Source of the DNA: Rhodospirillaceae bacterium
GTDB lineage: Bacteria; Pseudomonadota; Alphaproteobacteria; CACIAM-22H2
Length of the DNA stretch: 64,000 bases
Reading direction: 5' to 3'
Assembly (NCBI GenBank): GCA_022843945.1
Contig: JALHMR010000012.1
Coordinates: forward strand, 1 to 64,000
The notes under the pieces are model-generated. The model did not search any database. It worked only from the letters and a program-made list of their open reading frames with translations, and was not told where the DNA came from. The translations under genes and the position numbers were made by a program. Positions 14,820-32,573 of this stretch are shown here, piece after piece. Positions within the stretch are counted from its first letter, which is position 1. Each line of letters begins with the position of its first letter.

Positions 14820-15073
14820 GCGTCCCCGGCTTTGAAGTGCCGCTCCACCGGTCCCTGACCGAGCCGATCCTGCTTGCCGGGGCACCGCGAGGTGTTGCCA
14901 TCGTCAATGGGACGATCGCGGCCGCCCTTGGTCTTGGTCTGCGGCTGTGGCTCGCGGGGCTTCTCGTTTGGATCATCGGACACTCGGTCGCCGTGTTCGC
15001 GGCGAAGCGTGATCCGCAATTCATGGACGTGCTTGGGCGCCATTTACGGCACCGGGGATGGCTCTCGTGCTGA
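14816..15073 (+). CDS. trbD: TrbD, inner-membrane component
   Basis: 85 residues with the VirB3-like layout: short cytoplasmic start with EVPLHRSLTEPILLAGAP, then two close membrane helices (about 27-65), then a short basic end. It assists pilus assembly together with TrbE, whose start it overlaps by 16 bases. Confidence 0.88.
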   Translation: MSVPGFEVPLHRSLTEPILLAGAPRGVAIVNGTIAAALGLGLRLWLAGLLVWIIGHSVAVFAAKRDPQFMDVLGRHLRHRGWLSC

Positions 15074-17541: not shown

Positions 17542-18248
17542 AAGGCCTGCGCAAACTTCTGTTGATCTCGGCGACAGTTGCGATCATTGCGGCGCCCGCA
17601 CGCGCGATGACGGTGTTCGATCCAACGAACTACGTGGAAAACATGATGCAAGCGGCGCGGGCCCTGGAGCAGGTCAACAACCAGATCCGATCCCTCCAGA
17701 ACGAAGCGTTGATGATCGAGTATCAGCTCAGGCACCTGCAGAAGCTCGACTACTCCTCGCAATACGCGATCCAGAACGCCCTCAATCAGGTCAACGGCCT
17801 GATGGGTCGGGCCAGGGGGATGACCTACGACGTCAACCGCGCCCAGGCGGACTTCACCAGGCTATATCCCACCGAATACGCGACCCGGATCACCACAGAC
17901 CGCCTGGCCATCGACGCGCGGGAACGGTGGCGGAACTCCATGGAAGCATTTCAGCACGCGACGGTCGTTCAGTCGCAGATCGTCAGCAACGTGACAGCGG
18001 ACGGCGACACCCTCAACGAGCTTGTTGTCCGTTCGCAGGGCGCCGTTGGCAGTCTCCAGGCGCAGCAGGCGGCCAACGAACTTCTGGCCTTGTCGGCCAA
18101 ACAGCAGATGCAGTCGCAGATGCTCTTGGCGGCTCAGTACCGCAGCCGGTCGCTCGAAGACGCGCGAGCTGCATCCGCTGAAGAAGAGGCACGTCGCGTC
18201 TTTGATCAATTCTTGGGCGAGCGAGACGCCTACACCCCTTCGCGATGA
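17538..18248 (+). CDS. trbJ: TrbJ, VirB5-like periplasmic protein
   Basis: 236 residues. Signal peptide (about 1-23, ending APARAM) then an extended helical coiled region (NYVENMMQAARALEQVNNQI and Gln-rich repeats), as in VirB5-type minor pilus components. It acts at the pilus tip or channel. Start ATG 17538 overlaps the trbE stop. The usual small trbK entry-exclusion gene does not follow: trbL starts only 15 bases after this stop. Confidence 0.88.
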   Translation: MKGLRKLLLISATVAIIAAPARAMTVFDPTNYVENMMQAARALEQVNNQIRSLQNEALMIEYQLRHLQKLDYSSQYAIQNALNQVNGLMGRARGMTYDVNRAQADFTRLYPTEYATRITTDRLAIDARERWRNSMEAFQHATVVQSQIVSNVTADGDTLNELVVRSQGAVGSLQAQQAANELLALSAKQQMQSQMLLAAQYRSRSLEDARAASAEEEARRVFDQFLGERDAYTPSR

Positions 18249-18263
18249 GGGAAAGCCAGCGCC

Positions 18264-19505
18264 GTGGGCAACATAAACGTCATTGACCGCTTCACCGACA
18301 CGTTCGTCCGCTACATCGACAGCGGATTCGGGCTCCTGCTCGGTGAGGTGGCTTTTCTTACCTCCGTGCTTGTTGCCATCGACATCGCGCTCGCGGGGCT
18401 CTACTGGGCGCTCGATGAGGGATCCAATGTCATCGCGCGCCTCATCAGGAAAGTGCTCTACGTCGGCGCATTTGCGCTGCTTCTCAATAACTGGCCGACG
18501 CTATCGACAATCATCTTCCAATCGTTCTCAGGCTTGGGCCTAAGTGCGGCGCAAACGAGCCTTACGCCTCAAAGCCTCTTTCAGCCGGGTTTCATCGCTG
18601 GGATTGGGTTCCAGGCTGCGTATCCCTTGCTGCGGCAGGCTGGATCGATGATGGGGTTCACGACGTTCTTCAACAACGCTGTGACCATCGCTGTCTTGGT
18701 CTTTGCCTGGCTGGTCGTCGTCCTGGCGTTCTTCATCCTCGCGGTCCAGCTCTTCATCACGATCATCGAATTCAAGCTGACGACCCTTGCGGGCTTTGTT
18801 CTCGTGCCGTTTGCCCTATGGAACAAGACCTCATTCTTGTCCGAGCGCGTACTGGGCAATGTCGTCGCCTCGGGTGTGAAAGTGATGGTCCTCGCCGTCA
18901 TCGTCGGCATCGGCACCACCATGTTCGGTGAATTCTCGAATGCGCTTGGGCCGGAGCCGAGCCTGCGCGAGGCGATGTCCCTGGTTCTTGGGTCGCTGGC
19001 CCTGTTCGGCCTTGGGATCTTCGGGCCAGGGATCGCGGCGGGGCTCGTGTCGGGAGCGCCGCAGCTGGGGGCGGGGGCGGTGGTCGGCACAGCCGGCGCT
19101 ATTGCCGCCGGCACGCTTGCCGGTGCAGGGGCTGCCCTTGGCCTATCCCGAATGTCCTCCAGCGGCGCGCTATCCGCGGTTCGCGCCGGCGCCAGCCTGA
19201 GTTCCGGTGCGTCTCAAGCCTACACTCTGGCGCGGGCTGCCTCGGGCAGTACGGGCGCCGCTGGTGTTCTCGCCGGTCTGGGAGGCGTCACCCGGGCCGG
19301 TGGCGGTGCGGCGATGCAGAGTGTGCGCGGCGTCGCCGAGCGGATGAGAGCAGGCTCTGAAGCCTCTGACCCGATGCCGAACTGGGCGAGGCGGCTCCAG
19401 GCCGAGCAGCGTCGGCGGACCCGCATGCATGCCACCACCCAGGCCATCCGGGAGGGAGACCGCCCGGGTGGCAGCGTCAACCCTGACCTTCACGAGCGCG
19501 ACTGA
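18264..19505 (+). CDS. trbL: TrbL, polytopic inner-membrane channel protein
   Basis: 413 residues, VirB6-like. About six to seven membrane helices between residues 20 and 270, then a Gly/Ala/Ser-rich and finally basic cytoplasmic tail. It forms part of the inner-membrane translocation path. Starts with GTG at 18264, 15 bases after trbJ; its last base pair of codons overlaps the trbF ATG. Confidence 0.88.
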   Translation: MGNINVIDRFTDTFVRYIDSGFGLLLGEVAFLTSVLVAIDIALAGLYWALDEGSNVIARLIRKVLYVGAFALLLNNWPTLSTIIFQSFSGLGLSAAQTSLTPQSLFQPGFIAGIGFQAAYPLLRQAGSMMGFTTFFNNAVTIAVLVFAWLVVVLAFFILAVQLFITIIEFKLTTLAGFVLVPFALWNKTSFLSERVLGNVVASGVKVMVLAVIVGIGTTMFGEFSNALGPEPSLREAMSLVLGSLALFGLGIFGPGIAAGLVSGAPQLGAGAVVGTAGAIAAGTLAGAGAALGLSRMSSSGALSAVRAGASLSSGASQAYTLARAASGSTGAAGVLAGLGGVTRAGGGAAMQSVRGVAERMRAGSEASDPMPNWARRLQAEQRRRTRMHATTQAIREGDRPGGSVNPDLHERD

Positions 19506-20197
19506 TGTTCAAGCGACCCACGCAGCGATACGGCGACACGCCGGCTCCTGTCACCCCGTACCAGAAGGCGGCGCAAGTCTGGGACGAGCGTCTCGGCTCA
19601 GCTCGTGTTCAGGCCAAGAACTGGCGCCTGATGGCCTTTGGTTGCCTCATGCTGTCGATCGGCCTCAGCGCGGCACTCGTGTGGCAGAGCACGCGGAGTC
19701 TGATCACGCCCTATGTCGTCGAGGTGGACAAGTTGGGCGGCGTGCAGGCCGTGGCGCCGGCCGTACAACCCTATAAGCCGACGGATGCTCAGATCGCCTA
19801 CCACCTGGCGCGCTTCGTCACCAACATCCGCGGGTTGCCGATCGATCCCGTGCTCGTACGGCGGAACTGGCTAGAGGCGTACGATTTCGCCACCGACCGG
19901 GCGGCAAGCGTGCTGAACGAATACGCCCGCCAAAACGACCCATTCAAGGCGGTGGGCGAGCGCAGTGTGGCGGTCGACGTGACCAGTGTCGTCCGTGCCT
20001 CCGACGATTCCTTCCAGATCAAATGGATCGAGCAGCAGTTCCAGAACGGCAGCCTCGCGCGCACCGAGCGCTACACGGCCATCCTGTCGGTCGTCCTGCA
20101 GCAGCCGCGCGAGCCGGAAACGCTGCGCAAGAATCCCCTCGGTATCTATGTGCACGGCCTCAATTGGTCGCGCGAACTTTCGGGAGCCGCCCCATGA
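19505..20197 (+). CDS. trbF: TrbF, VirB8-like assembly protein
   Basis: 230 residues: short cytoplasmic N-terminus, one membrane helix (about 42-62, LMAFGCLMLSIGLSAALVW) and a periplasmic NTF2-like domain with the ITPYVVEVDKLGG start common to the family. It nucleates the channel core by binding TrbG and TrbI. The stop overlaps the trbG start by 4 bases. Confidence 0.9.
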   Translation: MFKRPTQRYGDTPAPVTPYQKAAQVWDERLGSARVQAKNWRLMAFGCLMLSIGLSAALVWQSTRSLITPYVVEVDKLGGVQAVAPAVQPYKPTDAQIAYHLARFVTNIRGLPIDPVLVRRNWLEAYDFATDRAASVLNEYARQNDPFKAVGERSVAVDVTSVVRASDDSFQIKWIEQQFQNGSLARTERYTAILSVVLQQPREPETLRKNPLGIYVHGLNWSRELSGAAP

Positions 20198-21195
20198 ACC
20201 TACGCCGACACTTCATTGCGTCTGTTTCTCTGATCGCCCTGGCGAGCTGCGTTCAGACGGCTCCGCCACCGGCGATCAGGTACGACGAAGAAGAAATGAG
20301 GCCAGCCGTGCTCGAGACCGCACCAAGCCGGCCGGTCGAAATCGTCACCGTGCCCGAGCCCTTGCCTCTGCCAGGCCAACTCAAGCCTGAACCCGCGACC
20401 TTGGCATCGCCGTCGCCCGCAACCGACAAGCAGCCGCCGACCGTGCGGGTGGACGCTGCGAACCGCGCAGCTCGTCTCGAGCCCAAAGCGGGCGGCTACG
20501 TGAACGCGGTTCAGGTCTATCCCTTCACACCGGGCGCGCTCTATCGGTTGTATGCCGCGCCCGATCAGGTGAGCGATGTCGCTCTTCAGCCCGGCGAGCA
20601 GCTGGTCGCCGTCTCTGCCGGCGACACCGTCCGGTGGGTCGTCGGCGACACCAAGAGCGGATCGGGTGTTGCCGAACAGATGCATATCCTGGTGAAGCCG
20701 ATCGCCGCCGGGCTCAAAACCAACCTCGTCATCACCACCGACCGGCGGGCCTATCACCTGGAGTTGGAAAGCACGGACCGCACCTACATGGCGGCCGTGT
20801 CGTGGACCTATCCGCATGACCAGCTTATCGCGTTACGGCAGCGCAACGAGCGCAGTCACGTGGCAGAGGCATCAACGGTCGAGCGTGGGCTCAATATCGA
20901 CAAGCTGCGATTCCGCTATGAGATCACCGGCGACAATCCGCCGTGGCGGCCGACACGGGCGTTCGACGATAGCTCGAAGGTCTACATCCAGTTTCCCAAC
21001 AGGATCGATCAGGGCGAGGCGCCACCACTCTTCGTTCTCGGACCCAGCGGGGGCGCAGAACTGGTGAACTATCGTGTCCGCGGCAACTACTACATGGTCG
21101 ATAGGCTGTTCGCCGCGGCGGAGCTGAGACTGGGCACTGACCCGCAGCAGGTGGTTCGCATCAGCCGCACGGACGGCCAGCAGGCGGCCAAATGA
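20194..21195 (+). CDS. trbG: TrbG, VirB9-like outer-membrane channel protein
   Basis: 333 residues. A lipoprotein-like signal (LIALASC, Cys about 19) precedes a Pro-rich linker and the VirB9 domain (YPFTPGALYRLYAAP, then a C-terminal NYRVRGNYYMVDRLF beta region). With TrbI it builds the outer part of the type IV secretion core complex. The fused lipobox may make it do the VirB7 job as well, as no separate virB7/trbH gene is seen. Confidence 0.9.
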   Translation: MNLRRHFIASVSLIALASCVQTAPPPAIRYDEEEMRPAVLETAPSRPVEIVTVPEPLPLPGQLKPEPATLASPSPATDKQPPTVRVDAANRAARLEPKAGGYVNAVQVYPFTPGALYRLYAAPDQVSDVALQPGEQLVAVSAGDTVRWVVGDTKSGSGVAEQMHILVKPIAAGLKTNLVITTDRRAYHLELESTDRTYMAAVSWTYPHDQLIALRQRNERSHVAEASTVERGLNIDKLRFRYEITGDNPPWRPTRAFDDSSKVYIQFPNRIDQGEAPPLFVLGPSGGAELVNYRVRGNYYMVDRLFAAAELRLGTDPQQVVRISRTDGQQAAK

Positions 21196-22439
21196 CCGAC
21201 AGCAGTCATTCTGGTGCGCCGCCGGCGGACCTGACTCTCCATACCCGACCGCGTCCGGTGCGGCGCTTCAATCGCAAGGTTCTCATAGGTCTTGCGGCGC
21301 TCGGCTGCGCTCTCTTGTTCGGAGCGACTCTGGCGGCTCTCAGCCCGCCGAAGATCAACGGTACCAACGGCCAGGAACTCTATAACACCGACCGGAAAGC
21401 GAGGGCGGACGGGCTCGCCGATCTGCCGAAGAGCTACGCCGACCTTACTAAGCCAGTTCCGCCGCTGGGACCGCCGGTTCACGGCGATCTCGGGCGACCG
21501 TTGGTGAACATGGAGCGCGAATACGGCATCGCGCAGGCACAGTCGCCGCCCTCCGGGCTTGGGTTTCGGCCGGATGCGGAAGCGGATGCGGCACGCGCCG
21601 AACGGTTGCGCATGGCCCAGAAAGCGCAGCAGGCCCGGGAAGCGGGCGTCTTCTTCCAGGTAAATGCCCGGCGAGAGGCTGCACAAGCGAGTGCTGCGGC
21701 ACAGCCAACTCAGAACGGGAGTGTGCGCCCATCCCCGGCTGCGGCCCCTGCCGACCCATCTCGCGTGCAGTTCGATCTTGAGAACGATCAGAACATGCAG
21801 CAGCGCAAGCTCGATTTTCTTAAGCAGGACGTTGACCGCAATATTTATAACCCGCACTCGCTGCAAGAACCTGTCTCGCCGTTCCAGGTGATGGCAGGGA
21901 CGGTGATCGCAGCGAGTTTGATCACGGGACTGAAGTCCGATCTTCCCGGCATCATCGTGGCGCAGGTGACGGAGAATGCCTATGACACGGTCACCGGGCG
22001 TCATCTACTCATTCCGCAAGGTGCGAGGCTGGTTGGCCGCTATGACAGTGTGGTGGCGTTCGGCCAATCGCGCGCGCTCGTGGTCTGGCAGCGCATTATC
22101 ATGCCAAATGGCTCGTCGATCGTGATCGACAATCTGCCGGCGACCGACACGGCCGGCTATGCGGGCCTGGAGGACGAGGTCGATTACCACACTTGGAGAC
22201 TGCTCACGGGCATCGGCCTCTCAACCCTGCTCGGTGTTGGAACGGAAGTCGGTTATCGCCAGGGCGAAAGCAATCTCGTCCGGGCCATCCGAGATGCGAC
22301 CCAGCAATCCACGAACCGCGCCGGCCAGCGAATCACCGAGCGCAACCTGAACATCCAGCCGACACTCACCGTACGGCCCGGGTGGCCGCTACGTGTGATC
22401 GTCCATAAGGATCTGGTGCTTCGGGAGTACCGAGGATAA
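21192..22439 (+). CDS. trbI: TrbI, VirB10-like core protein
   Basis: 415 residues. One membrane helix near residues 36-54, a Pro/Ala/Gln-rich periplasmic linker, and a C-terminal VirB10 beta-barrel domain (VTENAYDTVTGRHLLIPQGA, then the GYAGLEDEVDYHTWRLL antenna region and RPGWPLRVIVHKDLVL end). It spans both membranes and senses ATP use by TraG and TrbB-type ATPases. Last trb gene of the operon. Confidence 0.92.
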   Translation: MTDSSHSGAPPADLTLHTRPRPVRRFNRKVLIGLAALGCALLFGATLAALSPPKINGTNGQELYNTDRKARADGLADLPKSYADLTKPVPPLGPPVHGDLGRPLVNMEREYGIAQAQSPPSGLGFRPDAEADAARAERLRMAQKAQQAREAGVFFQVNARREAAQASAAAQPTQNGSVRPSPAAAPADPSRVQFDLENDQNMQQRKLDFLKQDVDRNIYNPHSLQEPVSPFQVMAGTVIAASLITGLKSDLPGIIVAQVTENAYDTVTGRHLLIPQGARLVGRYDSVVAFGQSRALVVWQRIIMPNGSSIVIDNLPATDTAGYAGLEDEVDYHTWRLLTGIGLSTLLGVGTEVGYRQGESNLVRAIRDATQQSTNRAGQRITERNLNIQPTLTVRPGWPLRVIVHKDLVLREYRG

Positions 22440-22450
22440 CGGAGGCCATC

Positions 22451-22744
22451 ATGCCGGAACTCAAGTTAGCGAAGCTGCCAGACCGCACACCGGTCAAGAT
22501 TTCGTTCAAGGCCGGACCGGAGCTCAACCAATTGCTCGGCGAATACGCCGAATTCTATCGGGAACGATACGGCCAAGAAGAGCCGGTCCCGGAGCTCATC
22601 CCCTACATGCTCGAGACATTTTTGCGGGGCGATACGGCTTTCATCAAAGCTCGGCGCGAGAAGCTTGGGGGGCTCGCGCAACCGCGACCGCGGGCGGCTC
22701 GGGCACGGTCGGGGAACGGCAGTGCAGCGTCACCCTCACATTGA
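22451..22744 (+). CDS. DUF2274 domain protein
   Basis: 97 residues. The first 70 match the DUF2274 family (MPELKLAKLPDRTPVKISFKA, then a helical AEFYRERYGQ and a PELIPYMLETFLRGD end). Genes of this family almost always follow trbI in alphaproteobacterial ICEs; function unknown. It starts 11 bases after trbI with a GGAGG site, so it is the last gene of the trb transcript or very close to it. Confidence 0.85.
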   Translation: MPELKLAKLPDRTPVKISFKAGPELNQLLGEYAEFYRERYGQEEPVPELIPYMLETFLRGDTAFIKARREKLGGLAQPRPRAARARSGNGSAASPSH

Positions 22745-22755
22745 TGGAGACGATC

Positions 22756-23079
22756 ATGTCTGTGATCGGCACGTTCGAGGCGACAAAGGATGGCGGCTGG
22801 GTTGGCAATATCCGCACGCTCACCGTCGACATCAAGGCACGCTTCGTCCCCAACGATAACCGCAGCAGCGACAATGCTCCGGCGTTTCGCGTGCTTGCCG
22901 GCCGGTCTGAGATTGGCGCCGCTTGGCAGGCCCAGGCCAATGGGGATGAAGGCAAGCCTTATCTCAGTGTCAGCCTCGACGATCCATGCCTGCCGCGCGC
23001 GATACACGCAGCATTGTTCGAGGATACGAAAAACAAATCCGCCCAGCTCATATGGACCCGCCGCCGCGGCGATGGGTAA
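22756..23079 (+). CDS. DUF736 family protein (second copy, divergent)
   Basis: 107 residues: IGTFEATKDGGWVGNIRTLT, the FRVLAGRSEIGAAWQA core, and a Leu/Pro-rich C-terminus. It is a different subfamily from the copy at 5219-5542 and not a recent duplicate of it. ATG 22756 is preferred over a TTG/ATG a few codons upstream because GGAGA lies 6 bases before it. It directly follows the DUF2274 gene. Confidence 0.85.
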   Translation: MSVIGTFEATKDGGWVGNIRTLTVDIKARFVPNDNRSSDNAPAFRVLAGRSEIGAAWQAQANGDEGKPYLSVSLDDPCLPRAIHAALFEDTKNKSAQLIWTRRRGDG

Positions 23080-23108
23080 ACCCTGGCATCAGCGTAAGCG
23101 AGGATCAA

Positions 23109-23351
23109 ATGCTCAAAGCTCAGACCGATTCTCACGGGGTAAGCTTGCGAATGTCTCCTTCGGACGTTGCAGCCATTGATAGGACTCGGTTGGCCGTGTC
23201 CGTTCGTGAAGCCGTTGCCATGTCCGGACTTTCTCGATCGTTCCTCTATGAGGCAATGAATCGAGGGGAGCTGCCCTTTATAAAGAAGGGGCGCCGGCGG
23301 CTCATAGCGGCGTCGTCGCTATCCGAGTATGTATTGCGAAGCGACCAGTAG
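23109..23351 (+). CDS. Excisionase-like helix-turn-helix protein
   Basis: 80 residues. VSVREAVAMSGLSRSFLYEA is a MerR/Xis-type helix-turn-helix and LPFIKKGRRRLIAASSLSEY the basic wing and following helix. It lies at the end of the conserved backbone, immediately before cargo, and is a candidate recombination directionality factor for the missing integrase or a local repressor. The ATG at 23109 gives the usual length for the family. Confidence 0.75.
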   Translation: MLKAQTDSHGVSLRMSPSDVAAIDRTRLAVSVREAVAMSGLSRSFLYEAMNRGELPFIKKGRRRLIAASSLSEYVLRSDQ

Positions 23352-23415
23352 GCGCCTAACCTCCTGAAATTCAACTCATATATATCATTGATCCAGCATT
23401 GAAAATTAAGGATTG

Positions 23416-23874
23416 ATGTCGTATTTTGACAGAGAGCAAATGGTGCCAACCATGCAAACCAAGCCCTTGCCGCTGGAAACCAAGATTTCGGAGCGCGTTA
23501 CCCTCAAGAAGAGGAGTGATGTGTTTCTGCGCGACGATTTTCTGGATCTTGCCGGCTACGACCAGGTTGGTCGGGCGTTGCGAGGCCTCGTTAGCAAAGG
23601 CCAGATGCTGAAGCTGGGCTATGGCCTCTATACACGCGCGGCACCGTCTCCGTTCGACGGTCAGCCTGCACCGATCAAGGGTCTGCGCACTCTTGCCGAG
23701 GAAGCGCTTGGGCGTCTTGGCGTTAAGACCGCGGAGACCGAGCTTGAGCGCGCCTATAGTGCGGGCGAGACGACCCAGGTCCCTTCGGGTCGCGTGATCG
23801 CGGTGGCCAAGCGCGTCCGTCGCAAGATCGGCTTCGCCGGCAACTATATGAGCTTCGAGAGTGCCGCCACCTGA
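23416..23874 (+). CDS. AbiEi-type antitoxin (DUF6088-like)
   Basis: 152 residues from ATG 23416 (AAGG 4 bases upstream; ATG 23452 is the alternative). The N-terminal half is a winged helix (VFLRDDFLDLAGYDQVGRALRGL and the KLGYGLYTR wing) and the C-terminal half the antitoxin domain. Type IV AbiEi antitoxins repress their own operon and counter the AbiEii toxin without binding it tightly. Its last 14 bases overlap the toxin gene, the usual arrangement. Confidence 0.8.
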   Translation: MSYFDREQMVPTMQTKPLPLETKISERVTLKKRSDVFLRDDFLDLAGYDQVGRALRGLVSKGQMLKLGYGLYTRAAPSPFDGQPAPIKGLRTLAEEALGRLGVKTAETELERAYSAGETTQVPSGRVIAVAKRVRRKIGFAGNYMSFESAAT

Positions 23875-24766
23875 CCGAGTTCTCATCGAGAGGGTTGCGG
23901 GTGCGCTGGCTACGAGCGAAGGACTTGTCGAGAAGGACTGGCACGTCGTCCGGGCGCTCGCCGTAATCGCCGCTGTCGATCACGGCGAGATGATCCCGGT
24001 CTTTTCCGGCGGGACCTCGCTGTCAAAGGGCCATCAGCTCATCAAGCGCTTCTCGGAAGATATCGACTTCAAGGTCAAAGCTCCCGCTCGCGCCACCAAG
24101 GGCCAAGCCAGCCGCGACAGAAGTGCTTACCGCAAAAAGATCCTGGATGCGTTGGTCGCCGCCGGCTTCGCTCTTGAGCGCCAGCAGGCCGGCAACGAGA
24201 GCATGTATTTCTCTGCCGATCTGAAATACGGCGGCGCCTTCAAGGTCGGCGCAGGGTTGCGACCGCACATCAAGCTCGAGATGAGCTTCTGGGAACCGTC
24301 CTGCGCTCCGGTTGAAAAGCCGATCCAGTCGCTTGTCGGCTTGGCTGATAAGGCGGCTCCCGAAGTGCCAAAATTGCTCTGCATCGCCTTGGTCGAAACT
24401 GCGGCGGACAAGCTCAGCGCGCTCGCCTGGCGCGCTCATGTGCGAGATCGCAAAGCTGCGGGCGATGATCCTAGTATCGTCCGGCATCTTCACGACCTTG
24501 CGGCCCTTGAGCCTCACGTTCTCGCTAATGCCGATTTGCCACGGCTCGTGCGTGAAACCATGGCGCGCGACGCCACTCGTGCAGACGGTCTGCCGGAGGG
24601 ACCTGCCTTGCTCGGGTCAATGCTCGATAAGCTGGTCGCTGACAAGCTTTGGGGCGAGGAATACACGAACTTCGTCACACAGGTGTCCTATGCACCTGCC
24701 GCGGAACGGATCAGCTTCGAGGCCGCTCTTAAGGCTTGCCGTCGCCTCGTCACGCGCGTCGGCTAG
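23861..24766 (+). CDS. AbiEii/AbiGii-family nucleotidyltransferase toxin
   Basis: 301 residues. The nucleotidyltransferase core has GGTSLSKGHQLIKRFSEDID (the G-G-T-S...D-x-D motif, about 50-69), and later ALVETAADKLSALAWR, a motif of the COG2253/AbiEii family. Such toxins stop growth by modifying tRNA or other targets and act in abortive infection and in ICE or plasmid maintenance. GTG 23861 overlaps the antitoxin stop. The pair is probably the stability module of this ICE. Confidence 0.85.
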   Translation: MPPPDRVLIERVAGALATSEGLVEKDWHVVRALAVIAAVDHGEMIPVFSGGTSLSKGHQLIKRFSEDIDFKVKAPARATKGQASRDRSAYRKKILDALVAAGFALERQQAGNESMYFSADLKYGGAFKVGAGLRPHIKLEMSFWEPSCAPVEKPIQSLVGLADKAAPEVPKLLCIALVETAADKLSALAWRAHVRDRKAAGDDPSIVRHLHDLAALEPHVLANADLPRLVRETMARDATRADGLPEGPALLGSMLDKLVADKLWGEEYTNFVTQVSYAPAAERISFEAALKACRRLVTRVG

Positions 24767-24881: not shown

Positions 24882-25292
24882 CTAGGAGCGTTCCTCAGCT
24901 TGAGGAATGGCTTGGAGAATTGCAGTAGATGAGACAAAAACGGCGTTGTTCGATGACGTGATGAGGAAAACCGGTTTGTGACCTCTTGGTGTTAATGCCC
25001 GCAGGCGTTTGCGTGCGTCTCCTTGAAGAGTAACGACAATAGCCAAGTGGTCTGATGATAGCTCGATATCGCGAGCACGGACCTGATCTGCGAAGCCAGT
25101 GCCAAGCGCCTTGGCGCATGCTTCCTTGCAGGCAAAGCCACACGCGAAAGACAGACCAGGGTCAGGCATTTCTAGGCACTGGTTGCGTTCCTTTGACGTG
25201 AACACTTCCTCGATCCACGCATCGCCGAACCGGTTCACGGAACGTCGGATCCTTTCAATCCGGCACAGGTCAGTGCCAATACCGAGGATCAC
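24882..25292 (-). CDS. AcpS-like 4'-phosphopantetheinyl transferase
   Basis: 136 residues, full AcpS fold. MILGIGTDLCRIERI gives the metal-binding Asp (D8), FTSKERNQC the middle motif, and CGFACKEACAKALGTGF the second metal ligand (E57) and the substrate-binding helix. AcpS moves phosphopantetheine from CoA to a Ser of a carrier protein. A second, ICE-borne copy in a defence-like operon with no carrier protein or synthase gene nearby is odd. GTG start at 25292, 48 bases after the upstream gene, so it is the last gene of the minus-strand cargo operon. Confidence 0.8.
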   Translation of the reverse strand: MILGIGTDLCRIERIRRSVNRFGDAWIEEVFTSKERNQCLEMPDPGLSFACGFACKEACAKALGTGFADQVRARDIELSSDHLAIVVTLQGDARKRLRALTPRGHKPVFLITSSNNAVFVSSTAILQAIPQAEERS

Positions 25293-25340: not shown

Positions 25341-26345
25341 TCATACAAGCAGGCCTGCCTCGTGGCCAGTCACTGCGGTGTACTTTTCGAAGGCGGTCGT
25401 ATCGACCTTGACCTTCCACCGCGGCGGGAACATCGGGTGCGGTAGCGGGTTTGTATTCTTCCGATAGACTTGTTTTATACGCAGGCGCCCTGATAGCCCC
25501 GGGACGTCGGGATGAGCTACTCGCGCATACTTGGAGATCTCGCAGAATAGATTCTGGCAGTCGATTGGTTGAAGTCGGCGGCCAAAGAGTGTTCGGAAGG
25601 TCACGCCGGCCTTTGCAAATGCTGCGTCCTGCTGCTCGCAGACCCAGAAAATCACCTCTTCGGGGGAAAGGCGCCCGGTGGAGGCGAAGCACTTCGCTAT
25701 TCCATCGAGCGCGCCGGGGCCAGCAATTACGAATGACTTTTCCTCGTGGTCCAGCAAATTAGAATAGTTCAAATCGATCGCGTATTGGAACGCGAGAAAT
25801 GGCCCGAGCCCGGGATAGCGTAGGAGGGTATCGTAGACTGCACGTAAGCTACGTGCCTGATGCAAGCGATCAGGGATTTTGTCATCCATCATGCGCACGA
25901 GTAGTGCGAGGTGATTAGCGTGTTTGCGGGCGTGGCCGAGTGCGGGCGCGGGCATGATGTAGGCTGCGGAGTAGAGGCGCTCTCCCCGCGCCATAAGCCC
26001 ATCAAGGACCTCTACGATTGCATCTAGGTCGGTGTTGTCGTAGCTGATCGGACCAAGGCTACGTTCAATTGCCTTCCAGGTCTCAATCCGATTGAAGAGT
26101 TTGAAGAGTAGCGTCCGAAAAAAAAGTTCACGAGGAGACGTTGGTCGATCATCGCGATACTGGACCTCCCGAATCAGAAACTGGCTAACCCGGTCGGCTG
26201 CTCGGTAGGCATTGGTGAAGCGGTAGCTGGCGAGAATGTGATCGCTGGTCCAAGGCCCCGGATGACCCGCCAGCCGTCGAAAGTAGATCGCTTGGCGCTC
26301 TGCCGCGAATCGCCAGTAGGTATCGAAAACCGATGTCGGATCCAT
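25341..26345 (-). CDS. 5-hmdU DNA kinase helical-domain family protein
   Basis: 334 residues from ATG 26345, chosen because AAAAGGG lies just upstream and the family motif begins at once: VFDTYWRFAAERQAIYFRRL, then GPWTSDHILASYRFTNAYRA and DRVSQFLIREVQY. Near the end ARVAHPDVPGLSGRLRIKQ is also typical. The family was described in phage and bacterial pathways that place complex groups on thymine in DNA (5-hydroxymethyl-dU kinases and related pyrophosphorylases). Membership is clear to me from the pattern; the exact activity is not. It lies 137 bases after the dCTP-deaminase-like gene and may have its own promoter. Confidence 0.72.
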   Translation of the reverse strand: MDPTSVFDTYWRFAAERQAIYFRRLAGHPGPWTSDHILASYRFTNAYRAADRVSQFLIREVQYRDDRPTSPRELFFRTLLFKLFNRIETWKAIERSLGPISYDNTDLDAIVEVLDGLMARGERLYSAAYIMPAPALGHARKHANHLALLVRMMDDKIPDRLHQARSLRAVYDTLLRYPGLGPFLAFQYAIDLNYSNLLDHEEKSFVIAGPGALDGIAKCFASTGRLSPEEVIFWVCEQQDAAFAKAGVTFRTLFGRRLQPIDCQNLFCEISKYARVAHPDVPGLSGRLRIKQVYRKNTNPLPHPMFPPRWKVKVDTTAFEKYTAVTGHEAGLLV

Positions 26346-26482
26346 GAACCCTTTTCTTCTGGGACACCAAGCAGAGGCAGGCGAACGCAGGCGTCGCCTA
26401 GTCCGCCACGCGCCAAACTTAGAGTCGTGAGTAAATCTTAGCCGAAAACTAAGCTGCCGATAACCGCGATTGCAGCTCTGCA

Positions 26483-27304
26483 CTAAGGTGTGCGCGGTGC
26501 AGAAGGAGGTGCTGCCGGGTTGGTGACAGGAGGAGGGGCAGGCGGGGCGGTTACAGAAGGAGGTGTTGCCGGTGGAGTGACGGCAGGAGCCGTCGCCGGG
26601 GCGGTGATCGCAGTGTTCGGGCGATCAACGGGGCGGCTGGACGAACACTCTTTAACACCGAAGGCAATCAATAGGCCTACAATGAGTCCCCCGGCCCATT
26701 TAACTACCGCTTGCTCCCGCTCGACCGCGTTGACCCGCTCCTTGATGGCCTCATCGTTCTCCTTGATCTTCGATAGTAGGTTCGCAAAGGACTCGAGGCC
26801 CCCCGCTATGGGACCGGTGAGGTCAGATGGAATGCTGTCATAACCCTTCTTTTTTTCGAGTTGTGACGGCCTATCGAGATCGGCGTACCAAATCAGGAAG
26901 CACGGCTCACCACGCGACAAGTGGACAGGGCCAGGACCTGCATTGAACACCGCGAAAATTAATCGGCCTTCGTAATTGGGGTCCACATGGAACCCCGATA
27001 CGTTGACGAGCCCTCTGAATTTGTAGCCGGCGCGGATGGAAATGAAAGCAACGGCTTCTATGGGGACGCGTACGGTTTCTTCGGTGAGAATGAAACCAAA
27101 TTGGCCGGCTGGAATGGTAAATCCTTGGCCCTCGGATAGCTGCGTCTTAGGTTTATTGCGTGGGTCGCTGGGCTCACCGGTGGGAGAGACATAGACTTCA
27201 GGACCCACCCTGAGACGATAAGACGCGCGGTCGAGCCGCAACGGATCGTACCCAGTGATGAGCGCTCCGAGCTCGTCGTGAAGCCTATCATTTCCCCAAA
27301 ACAT
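26483..27304 (-). CDS. Membrane-anchored dCTP-deaminase-fold protein, catalytic residues replaced
   Basis: 273 residues. Residues 20-150 follow dCTP deaminase/dUTPase (ASYRLRVGPE, IPAGQFGFILTEETVRVP, VDPNYEGRLIFAVFNAG). At the position of the enzyme's GRSSLAR loop it has IRAGYKF, and the catalytic Glu of the LEFYN motif is replaced (FAVFN), so deamination is unlikely. After the domain come a charged helical part (about 170-200), a membrane helix (VKWAGGLIVGLLIAFGV, about 202-218) and a Pro/Ala/Thr-rich tail. It could bind a pyrimidine nucleotide at the membrane as a sensor or effector. The start overlaps the upstream stop (TAATG). Confidence 0.75.
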   Translation of the reverse strand: MFWGNDRLHDELGALITGYDPLRLDRASYRLRVGPEVYVSPTGEPSDPRNKPKTQLSEGQGFTIPAGQFGFILTEETVRVPIEAVAFISIRAGYKFRGLVNVSGFHVDPNYEGRLIFAVFNAGPGPVHLSRGEPCFLIWYADLDRPSQLEKKKGYDSIPSDLTGPIAGGLESFANLLSKIKENDEAIKERVNAVEREQAVVKWAGGLIVGLLIAFGVKECSSSRPVDRPNTAITAPATAPAVTPPATPPSVTAPPAPPPVTNPAAPPSAPRTP

Positions 27305-27894
27305 TAGGCCTCGCCTCCTGCACCTTCGCGAAAATGTTTGTCAAAAATTGAGCGCGTTTCGACAAGGCGGATGCGGCTTTTATAGGCCTCGGCGATGTCC
27401 AGACCTTTAACGCTCGCTTGAACGAGTACGGTCTTCAACAGGGCGAGGTTGCAGTTCTGCATACCTTCTCGGAAGGGGACTGGCTCGAGATGGTCCCAAG
27501 ACTCGCATAGCTTAGCGAGTTTGCCGTTGTGACGAGCAAACTGCCGGACAAGCCACAGAGGATCATCAGGGTTACGCCCCAATTCCTGTCCCAATCGCGC
27601 GCCGACCTCCTGGAAGGAGCCGCTGGCGACGCTTCCAAGTTCTTGTCCAAGATCTTGGTTGAGGGTGTTTGCAGTAGCGAGGGCGATGATGAAAGCATCG
27701 ACTAGCGTTTTTACGAACTGCGCGTTGTCGCCTTGTTCGATCGCCTCGAAAAAATATGCCGTGTACTTGGTGTTATGTAGCGCCATGTGCTTGATGCGTT
27801 GCGCGAGCGGCATGATCACGACATCTTTGTGATAGGCCTCGTCGTGCTTCAGTTGAGCCCACTGAAGAGCAAGGAGCTGATCGCGAACAGTCAT
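27304..27894 (-). CDS. Helical protein, possibly MazG-like
   Basis: 196 residues, all-helical by eye. QRIKHMALHNTKYTAYFFEA followed by VDAFIIALATANTLNQDL resembles the all-alpha NTP pyrophosphatase (MazG) fold, in which a helix with acidic residues precedes a D-x-x-x-x-x-L-A-x-A-N helix. The EExxE metal motif of true MazG is not there, so it may be inactive or a different family. ATG 27894 has GGAAC upstream; GTG 27900 is possible. It sits 12 bases after the ThyA-like gene and 1 base over the deaminase-like gene, so it belongs to the same nucleotide-linked operon. Confidence 0.6.
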   Translation of the reverse strand: MTVRDQLLALQWAQLKHDEAYHKDVVIMPLAQRIKHMALHNTKYTAYFFEAIEQGDNAQFVKTLVDAFIIALATANTLNQDLGQELGSVASGSFQEVGARLGQELGRNPDDPLWLVRQFARHNGKLAKLCESWDHLEPVPFREGMQNCNLALLKTVLVQASVKGLDIAEAYKSRIRLVETRSIFDKHFREGAGGEA

Positions 27895-27906
27895 TGGCAC
27901 GTTCCG

Positions 27907-28719
27907 TCAGGCCGCCGCAGCGGTCGAAGCATTGTAGATATCCCTGCAGCGCGCGATCAGGGCTTCCACTTCGCGTTTCGTCCAGCTTCCACCTGAGCCC
28001 TCCCCTGAGCCCGTATCAAGCCGCGCGAAAGTGGAATTGATGGTCAGAGTACCAACTTTAAGCTTGGTTTCGCGGGCTAAGAAATACTGGAGCCTCCCCA
28101 AACCAACCAAGTTTCCGAGCAGGCGGCGCACATAGTAGTGGGAGCGATACGTCGCGTTGAACCGAATTTTTCCGTCATGCACCTTAATGCTGAGATGGCT
28201 TAAGCATGGGCCACCGTACAGGCGCTTACGGTCAGTTGCGGCGTCGTAGATCAGTATTTCGTCCTCGAAGTGGCGGCCCTGCCCAAGTTCGAAGGAAGCG
28301 CGGTATTTCCCATGTTTCGCGATCTTGTTGACCAGGTCCTCTAGCGGATTGAATGTGTTCCCCTCAAAGTCCTTCTGCCGGAGGATCCGGTAAGAGTATG
28401 AACCCCAATTCCCGTCGGTGCGACCCTTCTGGATTGCACGGAGCTTGGATGGATAGTCCTCGAACAGACCGCGTGCGCCCTTGCGCATGTACTCGTCGAG
28501 CGGAAAAATTGTCTCGGCAACTGTATGCACGCTGAAGGCGCCGTGATTGGTGAGAAAGCTGTCCATCTCCTTGTAGACCACGGCGTCAGCAGCTGAGAGC
28601 ACGGTTGGTTCCGCGATGTGCAAGATGACGTCAAAATCTTCGGTATCATCACACTTGGTAAGGTGCTCGACCGCTGCGAGCCACACTGCGGGGGCCGTCT
28701 GGCGTTGGATGAGTTCCAT
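27907..28719 (-). CDS. Divergent thymidylate-synthase-like protein
   Basis: 270 residues. The C-terminal two thirds follow ThyA: NWGSYSYRIL for the GPxYGxQWR region, GGPCLSHLSIKV with the catalytic Cys (C172), and NATYRSHYYVRRLLGNLVGL with the Arg-Ser of the nucleotide-binding motif and the conserved Asn (N203). The N-terminal 100 residues are unlike normal ThyA. Relatives include pyrimidine hydroxymethylases used by phages to make 5-hydroxymethyl bases; which substrate this one uses is not readable. It follows the protease gene by 8 bases and precedes the helical gene by 12. The housekeeping thyA is not in the window. Confidence 0.75.
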   Translation of the reverse strand: MELIQRQTAPAVWLAAVEHLTKCDDTEDFDVILHIAEPTVLSAADAVVYKEMDSFLTNHGAFSVHTVAETIFPLDEYMRKGARGLFEDYPSKLRAIQKGRTDGNWGSYSYRILRQKDFEGNTFNPLEDLVNKIAKHGKYRASFELGQGRHFEDEILIYDAATDRKRLYGGPCLSHLSIKVHDGKIRFNATYRSHYYVRRLLGNLVGLGRLQYFLARETKLKVGTLTINSTFARLDTGSGEGSGGSWTKREVEALIARCRDIYNASTAAAA

Positions 28720-28727
28720 TGTGTCCT

Positions 28728-29363
28728 CTAGGTCAGTAGGGCTGTTTCGTGGAGCTGACGATCAACGTAACCGCGCGGTAGCCAAGCGTAACCGCCGAGT
28801 CCCCATCCTTCGCCCCAGCTATTGCGAATAAGCAGCGCCGGAGCACTCCCGCTGTCGACGCCGTGACCTACCGCGAGGACGGCATGACCGCCTCGCTCAA
28901 TATCGGGCGCGCGATCTGCAACGTGTCCAGCGGCGTCATGTCGATAGAAGGCGTCAGTTATGACCAAGCCCAGAACAACCGGAGTTCCGCCATCAAGCAC
29001 AGCGACTACACCGTCGAAATCGAGCTTGCTGGGTGTCAGGGAAGCTTTGAGAAGCGTCGACGTGATTCCCGGTGGGACCCAGGGCGTCAACTGGTCCGAG
29101 GTATAGGGCCAAGCCGCCTCGATTGGTTGGCCCTCATCCGCCAATGCAGCGGCAGCGGCTGCCATCGTTGTGCCGGCATTCGGGTTTTTGCCCGGCGTGC
29201 GGGCCACGGCATGGAAGTAGAGGTACTCGACACAAAGGTGTTCGCCGGGCGCGGCATGATGCTCATGTGCGGTCGAGCTAGCGAATGCAAGGCACGAATT
29301 TCGACGGCCCTGATTACGAACGGGCAGGAGGGCGGGACGGAGGTCTACGCTCGGAGTGATCAC
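28728..29363 (-). CDS. Papain-like C1-family cysteine protease
   Basis: 211 residues, compact. VDLRPALLPVRNQGRRNSC gives the oxyanion Gln (Q18) and catalytic Cys (C24), GGHAVLAVGHG the His (H160), and LIRNSWGEGWGLGGYAWLP the Asn (N181). No pro-peptide or signal peptide is seen, so it is a cytosolic enzyme made ready to act unless held by an inhibitor. The gene starts 2 bases after the ImmA-chagasin gene, whose second domain belongs to the inhibitor class of exactly this protease family. I infer a regulated, possibly toxic protease; its target is unknown. Confidence 0.82.
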   Translation of the reverse strand: MITPSVDLRPALLPVRNQGRRNSCLAFASSTAHEHHAAPGEHLCVEYLYFHAVARTPGKNPNAGTTMAAAAAALADEGQPIEAAWPYTSDQLTPWVPPGITSTLLKASLTPSKLDFDGVVAVLDGGTPVVLGLVITDAFYRHDAAGHVADRAPDIERGGHAVLAVGHGVDSGSAPALLIRNSWGEGWGLGGYAWLPRGYVDRQLHETALLT

Positions 29364-29365
29364 GG

Positions 29366-30421
29366 CTACATACCGAAGCGACGTCGATTGGCGCGCGACA
29401 AGCCCCCGGATTCCGGGCCTTGGAGCGAGAGGGCGAGCGCGAAGGTTGGGTCAGCAGGGTTCTCTCCTGCCCACGGCTGAGACTCCCTCAAGGTCACCTC
29501 GCCGGTGCCTTGCTCGGGTGGACGTGCGATCAAAGTACGAACCGCAGGTGCACCGTAGTGAAGTGGGTCGCGGGAGAACGCAGACTCATCAGAGAGCACG
29601 AGGTAGCCGGCTTGGCGTAGCGCGTCGATCTGCCACTGATAACCGCCGCCGGCTACTTCTTCGAGTTCGATTCGGAGCAAGTCATCAGGGTTGCCGATCA
29701 GGCAGGCGCCGTTGTCCTTCGCCGTAAGACGCCACACATCTGACCAAGAGCTACCCGGCCGGAATTCTCCGCCCAAGCGAGACTTGAGCTTGGCGACCTT
29801 TACCTTGAGCAGTTCATCGACTTCGCTTTCAGGCAGGATCTGGTGGCCAACTAAACCCCAGCAAACTGCCTCATAGCTCGCACCCATCCGTAACGAGAGC
29901 TGATAAACGACGTCGGGATTGCGCAAATGGCCAGCGACTGTCCACTCCTGTGCGCGAATATGGTGTCGATATAACCAGCGGGGCAGCAAGAACTCTGCAG
30001 CGAACGCGTCGGCGGCAACCTCTTGCAGATCACGCCCTGCAGTCGGTGTGAGCGACCCGCGATAGAGCATCTCCCGGTCGACGCTGCCGCGATGCTCTAG
30101 CACCGCGTGCCCTAGCTCATGTGCCCCAGTAAAGCGCTGAATGTGAAGCCCGCGTTTTGTTGTAATCATGATGCCGCGAAGCGGTGCGGGCAGACATAAG
30201 CCGAGCGCAGAGGTCAAGGGCTTGAAGACAAGCGGGATATCGAGTTCGCTGATGACTTCGAAGACATCAACGAAGCCACTGCCCTCGGTGACGCGCCGCT
30301 GCAAATCTAAGTCGCGATGCAGCTGCTTCGCAGCAGCGACGGCATCGAGACGGGCGGCGGCGGCAGGGGACCTAGCCACGGCTTGTGTCCCGTGGCTGGC
30401 GTAGCTGGAGGAATTCAGCAA
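29366..30421 (-). CDS. ImmA/IrrE metallopeptidase fused to a chagasin-like inhibitor domain
   Basis: 351 residues in two domains. Residues 40-200 are an ImmA/IrrE (M78) zinc peptidase: FTGAHELGHAVLEH (HELGH at 101-105) and the EVAADAFAAEFLLP ligand helix. ImmA peptidases cleave partner XRE repressors. Residues about 246-334 match the I42 chagasin fold: VAGGGYQW for the NPTTGYxW loop, GTGEVTLRESQPW for the RPW loop, and a closing TFALALSL strand. Chagasins block papain-type enzymes, and the next gene, 2 bases away, encodes one. The start lies inside the XRE gene, overlapping it by 50 bases. Confidence 0.82.
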   Translation of the reverse strand: MLNSSSYASHGTQAVARSPAAAARLDAVAAAKQLHRDLDLQRRVTEGSGFVDVFEVISELDIPLVFKPLTSALGLCLPAPLRGIMITTKRGLHIQRFTGAHELGHAVLEHRGSVDREMLYRGSLTPTAGRDLQEVAADAFAAEFLLPRWLYRHHIRAQEWTVAGHLRNPDVVYQLSLRMGASYEAVCWGLVGHQILPESEVDELLKVKVAKLKSRLGGEFRPGSSWSDVWRLTAKDNGACLIGNPDDLLRIELEEVAGGGYQWQIDALRQAGYLVLSDESAFSRDPLHYGAPAVRTLIARPPEQGTGEVTLRESQPWAGENPADPTFALALSLQGPESGGLSRANRRRFGM

Positions 30422-30728
30422 ATCGTAGAAGCTCGGCGCGGTCCCCTGGGGACAGCTCGGTAGCGGCGCGCGCGAGGGCTTGCACGTTTTCGGGCAGCGG
30501 CTTCGTTTCGGCGACCCCGGTCAAGGCCTCAATCGACTGGCCATAGACTTTTGCGAACTTGGCCAGTTCCACGGCATCAACTTTTCGCTTTCCATTTTCG
30601 ACCAGCGACAGCGCCGAACGTGAAAGACCTACTGCAACCGCGGCATCCTCCTGCTTCAGTTCGAGATACTCTCGCGCCTGTTGAAGGCGCTCACCGATTT
30701 GCCGCCATTTCTCCGTGTCGTCGCTCAT
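30372..30728 (-). CDS. XRE-family repressor
   Basis: 118 residues. A lambda-Cro/XRE helix-turn-helix (about 10-66: RLQQAREYLELKQEDAAVAV, GLSRSALSLVENGKRKV) is followed by a short helical tail. Paired with the ImmA gene it overlaps, it forms the classic repressor-peptidase switch: damage or infection activates ImmA, which cuts the repressor. The inverted repeat over the operon promoter at 31122-31140 is its likely operator. ATG at 30728. Confidence 0.85.
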   Translation of the reverse strand: MSDDTEKWRQIGERLQQAREYLELKQEDAAVAVGLSRSALSLVENGKRKVDAVELAKFAKVYGQSIEALTGVAETKPLPENVQALARAATELSPGDRAELLRFAEFLQLRQPRDTSRG

Positions 30729-30738
30729 GATCGTGTCC

Positions 30739-31110
30739 TCATACCGTACTCAGTTCCTTAGCGGGCTTGGGCTTCCTCACCTTGATGTCGCCAATAAAGA
30801 CCTTCTCCAGTTTCGGTACGATGTCGGCGATCATCTCGTCACAACTGCCATAGCCTCCCGCCTTTATGATTTGAGGAGGCAGATCAATATCGAGAACCTT
30901 CTTCGTCACGACGGTCGCATCTACGACCCTTTTCGAGTCAATCGCGGGCCGCATACCCATGATCGAGCCGCCAGCCCCTGAAGGAGCGCCGGCTTCGACG
31001 GAGCCGTCGATTGATTCCGTTTCTTCCTTAAACCAAGCCTCAAGCTCAGCTTTGAGCTTGGAAACCTTGGCCGCGAATGCCTTCTTCAGTTCGTCCTTGG
31101 TCGTGGCCAT
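30739..31110 (-). CDS. Small charged helical protein, first gene of the cargo operon
   Basis: 123 residues from ATG 31110, chosen since GGAG lies 7 bases upstream and the extra ten residues from 31140 would run through the operator. The first 45 residues form a Lys/Glu-rich amphipathic helix or coiled coil (KKAFAAKVSKLKAELEAWFK). The rest has a Gly/Ser linker and a VVDATVVTKKVLDIDLPPQI stretch, then a basic tail. No family is recognised. It leads the transcript of the XRE, ImmA-chagasin and protease genes, 10 bases ahead of the XRE gene, and could be an antitoxin, adaptor or protease target. Confidence 0.6.
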   Translation of the reverse strand: MATTKDELKKAFAAKVSKLKAELEAWFKEETESIDGSVEAGAPSGAGGSIMGMRPAIDSKRVVDATVVTKKVLDIDLPPQIIKAGGYGSCDEMIADIVPKLEKVFIGDIKVRKPKPAKELSTV

Positions 31111-31121
31111 GTGTCCACTCC

Positions 31122-31168
31122 ATGTTCGATTTCCGAACATAATAAAGGAGCGCTGCGCGGAAAGTCAA
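31122..31168 (-). promoter_or_regulatory. Sigma70 promoter with overlapping inverted-repeat operator
   Basis: On the minus strand TTGACT (31168-31163) is followed after 17 or 18 bases by TTATTA/TATTAT (31145-31139). The likely start of transcription near 31132 lies inside a perfect inverted repeat, ATGTTCG-n5-CGAACAT (31122-31140). Binding there would block RNA polymerase. The first ATG is 12 bases beyond the repeat. The XRE protein encoded second in the operon is the natural candidate to bind it. Confidence 0.75.
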
Positions 31169-31235: not shown

Positions 31236-32573
31236 TTATTCATCCTCCGACGCAGGTGGCTCTGAAGTGTCCGGCGCCTCAATTGGGAGGTATGAGATGT
31301 TCGGGGCTGGAAGCGGTGCCCCGATCGCGTCCGCATAGTCGGCATCGGATAGAGACACCAAGAACGGCGCAGCGTCCGACGGGTCGATTGGGTATCGCGG
31401 CGCAGGATTTGGAACTGCGAAGGCCGGAGTTCCAACTTCACCGTTGCGAGCGAAGACTGCGCCAAAGCCGGTGACGTAGGTGGCATTCACGTGCGCTGCA
31501 CCGTAATGGCCGAAGAGTGCATACGACAAAATTCCGGCTCTACGCCGGAGGTGCGGCAGCATCAGATCTGCAGCCTCAATCCCGTGGTCCTGAATGGCGA
31601 TAAAGGCCGGCCGATTACCCGAGAACTGACTGGCTGCTTTGCGCATCGCCTCGAGCATAGGTTTCGATGTGTCGTCCTCTCGCTGGCTGCGCATGACGAC
31701 CAGACACCCTTCGGTCTCCGTGAAACCTCCGGCGATATGGGGGTTAGGCCCGAAGGCTAAGCCGCAGGCCTTGTAAAGCGCCTTCTGGTCGTGAATTGGC
31801 GTATTAGCCAAGACCTCGGTACGGAGACGCCGTTCGAGCTTGAAGTGCGACCCCTCGATGATTGCAGGCACATTATTTCGGAGGGTTGAAAGAGCCGCTT
31901 CTAATAGCTCGGCCTGACTTGACGTATTGGGTGATAGACGACCTTCGAGCGTGATGACCAGTATTTCCTGACGTTTCAGATTCGTATGCGCCATCAACTC
32001 TGGTGCGATCGCTTCCATGAAACGATAGAAGTCCTTTCGGTGAATTTGCCGTCCTGCATCTGCTGATAGGCTTTTGCACTCAACTTCACCAACGAAAGAG
32101 GCGCGACTGAAGCGAAGGTCAAATTGGGCTGTGCCTTCCATATCCGAGAATTCGACGTCATAGCCCCAATCCATGAGTCTTTGGGCTAGATCCAGTTCCA
32201 GATAGATGGGCGCGAACCCTGTTTCCGCTTTGAGTGCATCGCGCAATCGCCCCTCTAGCACCTGCCGCGCTTTTGGAGAGAGAAGGGAATGGACGCCGAC
32301 AGTAGTTGCGGCGAAGTTCAACGCTGCGAGGATGAGCTCGTCAGTCAGTTCAGGAAGTAGGCGTCCCTCTTTGGCTAGAACGTCCACCTGGAAGCTGATA
32401 GCCATCTCCAACCAGTGATAGTCGGCGACGATCTTCCAGCGAAAAGGCGATTTTCGCTGCTCTTGATCAAGCTGCTCGGCCCGCTTGAACCAGCGGTCGC
32501 TTCCGACCAATGCGATGAACCGATCAATGTAACTGGCAAGGAGGTTAAGATTGGTCGGCCCGCTCACACGCAT
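31236..32573 (-). CDS. Putative PD-(D/E)xK nuclease-like protein
   Basis: 445 residues, no named family recognised. Around residues 125-180 the order Glu (YLELDLAQRL, E126), Asp (TAQFDLRF, D152) and VGEVECKSLS (E165-x-K167) fits a PD-(D/E)xK nuclease core: helix with Glu, beta strand with Asp, beta strand with ExK. The last 60 residues are Pro/Asp-rich and disordered. It lies upstream of the promoter at 31122-31168 on the same strand, 95 bases away, so it is transcribed separately or reads into the operon. Its GC is low for the window. It may be a second defence gene or the nuclease arm of the same system. Confidence 0.65.
   Translation of the reverse strand: MRVSGPTNLNLLASYIDRFIALVGSDRWFKRAEQLDQEQRKSPFRWKIVADYHWLEMAISFQVDVLAKEGRLLPELTDELILAALNFAATTVGVHSLLSPKARQVLEGRLRDALKAETGFAPIYLELDLAQRLMDWGYDVEFSDMEGTAQFDLRFSRASFVGEVECKSLSADAGRQIHRKDFYRFMEAIAPELMAHTNLKRQEILVITLEGRLSPNTSSQAELLEAALSTLRNNVPAIIEGSHFKLERRLRTEVLANTPIHDQKALYKACGLAFGPNPHIAGGFTETEGCLVVMRSQREDDTSKPMLEAMRKAASQFSGNRPAFIAIQDHGIEAADLMLPHLRRRAGILSYALFGHYGAAHVNATYVTGFGAVFARNGEVGTPAFAVPNPAPRYPIDPSDAAPFLVSLSDADYADAIGAPLPAPNISYLPIEAPDTSEPPASEDE

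Follow-up and report, generated by a model that had tools for sequence, protein, structure and literature searches.

A chagasin-bearing M78 peptidase and a papain-like protease form a conserved module in an operon of the nucleotide-modification type

The window analyzed here, a stretch of 64,000 nucleotides from a Rhodospirillaceae bacterium, carries within positions 28728–30728 a minus-strand run of three genes encoding an XRE-family regulator, a fusion of an M78 peptidase with a chagasin (I42) domain, and a papain-like (C1) cysteine protease. This I42–C1 module is part of an eight-gene operon of the nucleotide/DNA-modification type that is probably borne by an integrative conjugative element. 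The features of the locus are given below by ascending coordinate.

24882–25292, minus strand: AcpS, a holo-ACP synthase (PF01648 and TIGR00516, above cut-off)
25341–26483, minus strand: HMUDK_hel, a 5-hmdU DNA kinase helical-domain protein (PF18723, 352 bits)
26483–27304, minus strand: dCTP deaminase/dUTPase-like protein (PF22769 above cut-off; TIGR02274 at E 9e-15, below cut-off)
27304–27900, minus strand: H198, an accessory protein with no assigned function (five loci of the set; phrog_19333, E 7e-16)
27907–28719, minus strand: thymidylate synthase (TS)-like protein with invariant Cys172 (TIGR03283 at E 5.5e-9, under the curated cut-off)
28728–29363, minus strand: papain-like C1 protease without propeptide (Q18, C24, H160, N181; Peptidase_C1 match)
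29366–30379, minus strand: M78 (CapP-like)–I42 fusion, probable GTG start at 30379 (the ORF opens with TTG at 30421)
about 29861–30181 and about 29435–29683, minus strand: M78 and I42 stretches of the fusion, respectively (Pfam, PADLOC, profiles)
30372–30728, minus strand: XRE repressor, 118 aa, CapH-like over its whole length (Pfam and PADLOC)
30739–31110, minus strand: carrier-protein-like protein, 123 aa (ATG at 31110; Ser59 of the DS(L) motif invariant)
31123–31139, minus strand: putative operator TGTTCGGAAATCGAACA, core of the palindrome ATGTTCG-N5-CGAACAT (31122–31140)
31139–31144, minus strand: -10 box TATTAT, touching the operator, with an 18-bp spacer (consensus match only)
31163–31168, minus strand: -35 box TTGACT (consensus match only, read from the sequence)
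31236–32573, minus strand: U445, upstream of the promoter (associated in four loci of the set)

The three genes lie where the initial annotation placed them, with domains scoring above the Pfam curated cut-offs, and the 2-base gap that it described between the fusion and the C1 gene is real, the latter beginning three bases below the fusion stop codon. The 50-base overlap that it gave for the XRE and fusion genes holds for the TTG start at 30421, but relatives in the alignment start at the position of the window's GTG at 30379, and the overlap is therefore corrected to what are probably 8 bases, with a fusion of 337 aa. Elsewhere in the operon, the dCTP deaminase-like protein (26483–27304) has, by eye, a probable C-terminal membrane helix, which is odd for a nucleotide enzyme. 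The U445 protein has no match in Pfam, NCBIfam, PADLOC or PHROGs; its gene also accompanies the system in L002, L010, and L030 and stands beside a TS fragment in L089.

One side of the operon is directly adjoined by an AbiE toxin–antitoxin pair (DUF6088 and AbiEii, 23413–24766), which is preceded by a conjugation module at 15058–23351 comprising TrbE/TraG-like, TrbL, VirB8, CagX, TrbI, and DUF2274 genes, while the genes on the other flank look chromosomal (LysR and, by eye, thioredoxin reductase). This arrangement suggests that the operon is cargo of an integrative element, probably a conjugative one, at whose edge it would lie. The window genome holds one copy of the system, 1 of 60 relatives holds another, and about ten of its plasmid carriers are conjugative. 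The system is not a phage staple: no match was found in 50,697 phage records, and IMG/VR yielded one full system (L040, close to the end of a contig of 48 kb) and one that lacks the C1 gene (L080). Caspase-like, alpha/beta-hydrolase, pYEATS, and CHAT genes adjoin several relatives of the system (L029, L030, L031, L035, L084), which suggests protease-rich defense islands.

Homologues of the fusion were collected by scanning genomes and plasmids, the open frames of their neighborhoods were compared, and further genomes and a viral contig were added. Full-length fusion homologues occur in Alpha-, Beta-, and Gammaproteobacteria, Acidobacteria, Verrucomicrobia, and, on a haloarchaeal plasmid, in the archaeon Haloarcula marina; loci L017–L028, which match the M78 part only, were left out as homologues of the system. 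The initial annotation had staked its proposal on conservation of this neighborhood, and the conservation is strong: the C1 gene directly follows the M78–I42 gene in each of the 34 loci whose length allows a judgement, the window included, and the order XRE, M78–I42, C1 is kept wherever the contig reaches the XRE gene. No locus of sufficient length departs from this order, which puts the arrangement far beyond chance, and it is a real conserved module shared by many bacterial lineages and one archaeon. Around this core, a small carrier-protein-like gene precedes the XRE gene in nearly all loci, and the TS-like gene follows the C1 gene in all except L088, where it lies upstream. Other components vary, the first 27 loci including MazG-like genes in 20, uracil-DNA glycosylase (UDG) in 17, HMUDK in 9, a dCTP deaminase-like gene in 7, H198 in 5, and U445 and AcpS in 4 each. 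The closest relative, L029, resides on a Rhizobium ruizarguesonis plasmid, encodes a fusion 64% identical to that of the window, and repeats nearly the whole window operon.

Loci L119–L122, recovered as TS-profile matches, proved to be ordinary thymidylate synthases in long frames with no M78, XRE or C1 gene nearby and were set aside. HMUDK homologues stand without the core in L124, L126, and L129, so that HMUDK by itself does not mark the system. Two of these, on Erythrobacter and Sphingosinicella plasmids, place HMUDK beside genes for DNA polymerase III epsilon/exonuclease and alpha (L124:6297–11667 and L129:6381–12293), a context that differs from that of the system. Separately, an interruption of about 1.4 kb, probably an insertion, divides the UDG gene of L116 (7971–10292).

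The I42 domain of the fusion spans residues 247–329 and scores 36.3 bits against Inhibitor_I42 (Pfam cut-off 27.2), and its profile retrieves amoebiasin-2 (E 3.5e-11) and chagasin (E 0.0035) among solved structures. The inhibitory loops of chagasin are NPTTG (L2) and RPW (L6). In the fusion alignment, G260, W263, and G290 are invariant and Y261, R295, P316, and W317 nearly so; a GYxW motif is found in 34 of 34 C1-bearing loci and an R/QPW motif in 31 of 34, with the window copy reading GGGYQW and QPW. The closest relative, L029, has lost RPW and kept C1. At the position of chagasin T31-T32 in L2, most loci have small residues instead, mostly G or S followed by A, G or S. A chagasin T31A/T32A mutant still inhibits cathepsin L, while its affinity for cruzipain is about 140-fold lower (PMC2607524), and because chagasin mutants thus differ by protease, the replacement of TT may be tolerable for one protease and not for another. 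Taken with its neighbor, the I42 domain would quite probably bind the C1 protease at its active site, the predicted inhibition being well supported by sequence.

The C1 protein scores 46.5 bits against Pfam Peptidase_C1 (cut-off 20.7), and its profile lies closest to ordinary cathepsins. The early description of it as a protease with an intact Cys-His-Asn site and no propeptide is borne out: all 26 sequences compared share Q18, C24, H160, and N181, and the active cysteine falls close to the N-terminus, at residue 23–30, in almost every homologue. An enzyme of this kind, if active, would need an inhibitor in trans. By eye, both the I42 fusion and the C1 protein lack signal peptides. A structural view of the pair comes from L006, in which the I42 and C1 genes abut in frame, and for which a joined protein of 341 residues was predicted by reading the single stop between the genes as Gly. 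As whole-model scores, this I42–C1 model has a mean pLDDT of 89.5 and a pTM of 0.78. We estimate that two rigid domains oriented at random would score a pTM of about 0.6, and packing of I42 against C1 is thus predicted with some confidence. A Foldseek search with the joined model gave papain-family structures among the matches listed and was uninformative on docking.

Sister operons that lack the C1 gene provide a natural comparison. Ten such loci were found, on Streptomyces plasmids (L081, L082, L127), a cyanobacterial plasmid (L125), in Rhizobium (L128), on a viral contig (L080), and in further genomes (L085, L087, L117, L118); L086, which ends inside the M78 gene, and L016, which ends before C1, are outside the presence/absence count. 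These operons encode XRE, M78, TS-like, HMUDK, and MazG-like proteins, and the carrier-like gene stands first where the upstream region was inspected. The six-gene form (carrier, XRE, M78, TS-like, HMUDK, MazG-like) is seen in L081, L082, L085, L087, L125, L127, and L128, among which are plasmids as well as genomes, from several phyla. The existence of C1-less systems means that the C1 protease is not essential to the core. The two C1-less M78 proteins tested gave no I42 match, and GYxW and RPW occur together in none of the ten, a lone P-W string in the L081 protein lying away from the L6 position. The inhibitor–protease pairing proposed at the outset is thus upheld, I42 and C1 being jointly present in 34 loci and jointly absent in 10 sister loci. 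The M78 C-terminus of L080, L081, and L082 is still distantly related to I42, over its first half only (hhalign probability 81%), as if the chagasin loops had decayed in this group after loss of the protease. In a tree of M78, XRE, and TS, the C1-less loci form one clade (support 70) next to the C1-bearing L088; the 34-versus-10 count therefore stands for one or two events of joint gain or loss of the I42 loops and C1, in either direction.

The regulatory genes resemble a known pair. The XRE protein exceeds the cut-offs of Pfam HTH_31 and HTH_3 and matches PADLOC capH at E 2e-12 over model positions 7–99 of 103, and the fusion scores 34.9 bits against Pfam M78 (cut-off 22) and matches PADLOC capP at E 2e-15, capH and capP being the best PADLOC models for the XRE and M78 parts. 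The HExxH motif and E134 of M78 are invariant in the alignment of fusion homologues, and a profile of the M78 part finds CapP best among solved structures (E 5e-7), with IrrE also found. CapP binds ssDNA and cleaves CapH upstream of immune operons (PMC13373217), and the M78 peptidase described here would likely cleave the XRE protein. A candidate site of action for the repressor is the palindrome TGTYNGAWWWTCNRACA, which in 30 of 32 loci precedes the first gene with no more than two mismatches; none of 100 shuffles matched as well in those loci, and the pattern, having been written after about ten sites had been seen, is partly fitted. In the window, the palindrome at 31123–31139 touches the TATTAT -10 box, with the TTGACT -35 box 18 bases upstream, and an alternative start of the carrier-like ORF at 31140 falls inside the operator. 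Other palindromes occupy the same place in the C1-less loci. This conserved palindrome is a putative operator that marks the operon promoter.

The remaining genes point toward nucleotide chemistry. The first gene of the operon probably encodes a carrier protein, a reading that draws on several weak signals: the serine of the DS(L) motif is invariant in the family alignment, the family profile retrieves mostly acyl carrier proteins from the PDB (best E 0.0013), and PF00550 gives weak matches in 8 of 24 members, with the Streptomyces orthologue (L081) above cut-off and no match for the window copy. An AlphaFold2 model of moderate confidence (pLDDT 71.5) has helices as in ACPs, carriers lead its list of non-significant Foldseek matches, and NCBI names the first gene a carrier protein in L081, L082, L125, and L127. 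For the TS-like protein, Cys172 is invariant and the C1-less (type-B) orthologues are named thymidylate synthase by NCBI; its profile found no match among solved structures. Judged by their domains, the carrier-like, TS-like, AcpS, dCTP deaminase-like, and HMUDK proteins make up a pyrimidine/base-modification toolkit, to which MazG/MazG_C and UDG are added within the operon elsewhere in the set. Anti-phage systems that have been validated by experiment include TS and 5-hmdU kinase domains, and predicted ones include MazG, MazG_C, and UDG (PMC13092281). We judge a defense role for the operon to be likely.

The initial annotation had predicted that the regulator, fusion, and protease form a two-input switch. 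This prediction is supported in part, by the conserved neighborhood and pairing, the conserved chagasin contact loops, the CapP/CapH likeness, and the palindrome, but the proposed switch would not be self-contained, since the three genes are added to a larger operon of the nucleotide-modification type. We give about even credence to a modified reading, namely a damage-inducible mobile defense operon in which a CapP-like activator also cages a cytosolic protease. According to this model, the XRE repressor would sit on the promoter palindrome and keep expression of the operon low, and the M78 peptidase would act as a CapP/ImmA-type activator that cuts the repressor when triggered, probably by single-stranded DNA arising from infection or damage. 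The C-terminal chagasin domain would plug the active site of the C1 protease, the next product of the same message, so that the protease would be born caged in the cytosol. Upon triggering, the operon would be derepressed and the cage lifted, whether through a conformational change, clipping of the activator or altered stoichiometry, and the freed protease may cut cell or phage proteins or mature another part of the system. The carrier-like, AcpS, TS-like, dCTP deaminase-like, and 5-hmdU kinase-like proteins, with MazG/MazG_C and UDG elsewhere, would supply a defense based on nucleotide or base modification. Trigger-dependent release of the protease is the step that we propose most tentatively, leaning slightly against it.

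The step of release is where the first alternative departs. The fusion and the protease may instead behave like a toxin–antitoxin pair, in which I42 always neutralizes a potentially toxic C1, M78 regulates transcription only, and the protease is freed solely upon loss or degradation of the fusion, as in host shut-off. The tight translational order, the fixed pairing, the mobile setting with conjugation genes and AbiE, and the economy of fusing an antitoxin to its regulator are all consistent with this arrangement; we nevertheless hold it to be unlikely, as the inhibitor sits in the trigger-sensing protein itself, suggesting active release. A second, rather improbable alternative directs the protease toward its own operon, where cleavage of the XRE, M78–I42, carrier-like or TS-like protein would switch the response on or off, with I42 setting the threshold. 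The constant position of C1 directly after the regulators agrees with such feedback, as does the C1-less variant, which presumably works with the regulators alone. The chagasin-like domain could also be a mere beta-sandwich docking module that stands beside C1 through shared inheritance of the operon, an idea helped by the small number of gain/loss events and by the absence of RPW from L029; retention of GYxW, the DE-loop glycine, and PW, across bacteria and the archaeon, only where C1 is present makes it very improbable. Least credible is a C1 site that transfers or hydrolyzes an acyl or aminoacyl group on the carrier-like protein under regulation by I42, for although the operon starts with a carrier-like gene and several loci include AcpS, the C1 profile is nearest to proteases of the ordinary cathepsin type, and C1-less systems keep the carrier-like, TS, and kinase genes, which makes C1 dispensable to the chemistry.

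Should the caged-protease model be correct, damage sensing, derepression, and protease uncaging would be coupled in a single protein. Bacterial immunity would then include a proteolytic relay made of a cytosolic papain and its inhibitor, and the model would give a testable prediction for a conserved unnamed operon distributed from Rhizobium plasmids to a haloarchaeon. Beyond this, it is conceivable, though doubtful, that the loci constitute an undescribed mobile immune family whose carrier, phosphopantetheinyl transferase, and TS-like proteins produce a pyrimidine nucleotide or base that is acylated or hypermodified, one branch of the family having welded a chagasin-caged papain protease to a damage-sensing metallopeptidase; the sensor would in that case combine protease, transcriptional activator, and protease inhibitor in one polypeptide. 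Carrier-protein chemistry would then be tied to nucleotide-based defense, of which no description was found in the literature searched. Searches for chagasin–ImmA, M78–I42, and carrier protein–TS combinations in defense returned nothing relevant, and a mention in the 2013 and 2015 base-modification and nucleotide-centric work is possible.

Several known systems share parts of this architecture. Nucleotide/DNA-modification conflict systems contain the same domain types (PF18723, PF18722, MazG, UDG, and TS-like), although the part of that account available to us does not mention the carrier-like protein, AcpS, the CapHP-like pair or the I42–C1 module (PMC13092281). The CapH and CapP proteins of CBASS and other immune operons show the same order of XRE repressor followed by M78 peptidase on the promoter side; here, by contrast, a chagasin domain is fused to the M78 protein, a C1 protease comes next, a carrier-like gene stands first, and the controlled genes encode nucleotide and base enzymes rather than CBASS. 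IrrE/PprI–DdrO and ImmA–ImmR likewise consist of an M78 peptidase that cuts an XRE repressor, and to our knowledge neither has a chagasin domain or a papain partner. Finally, the chagasin/ICP (I42) inhibitors of papain proteases share the GYxW and RPW motifs and the target family, whereas the inhibitor described here is fused to a regulatory metallopeptidase, acts, if the model holds, on a partner that like itself carries no signal peptide, and mostly has GA, GG or GS in L2 instead of TT.
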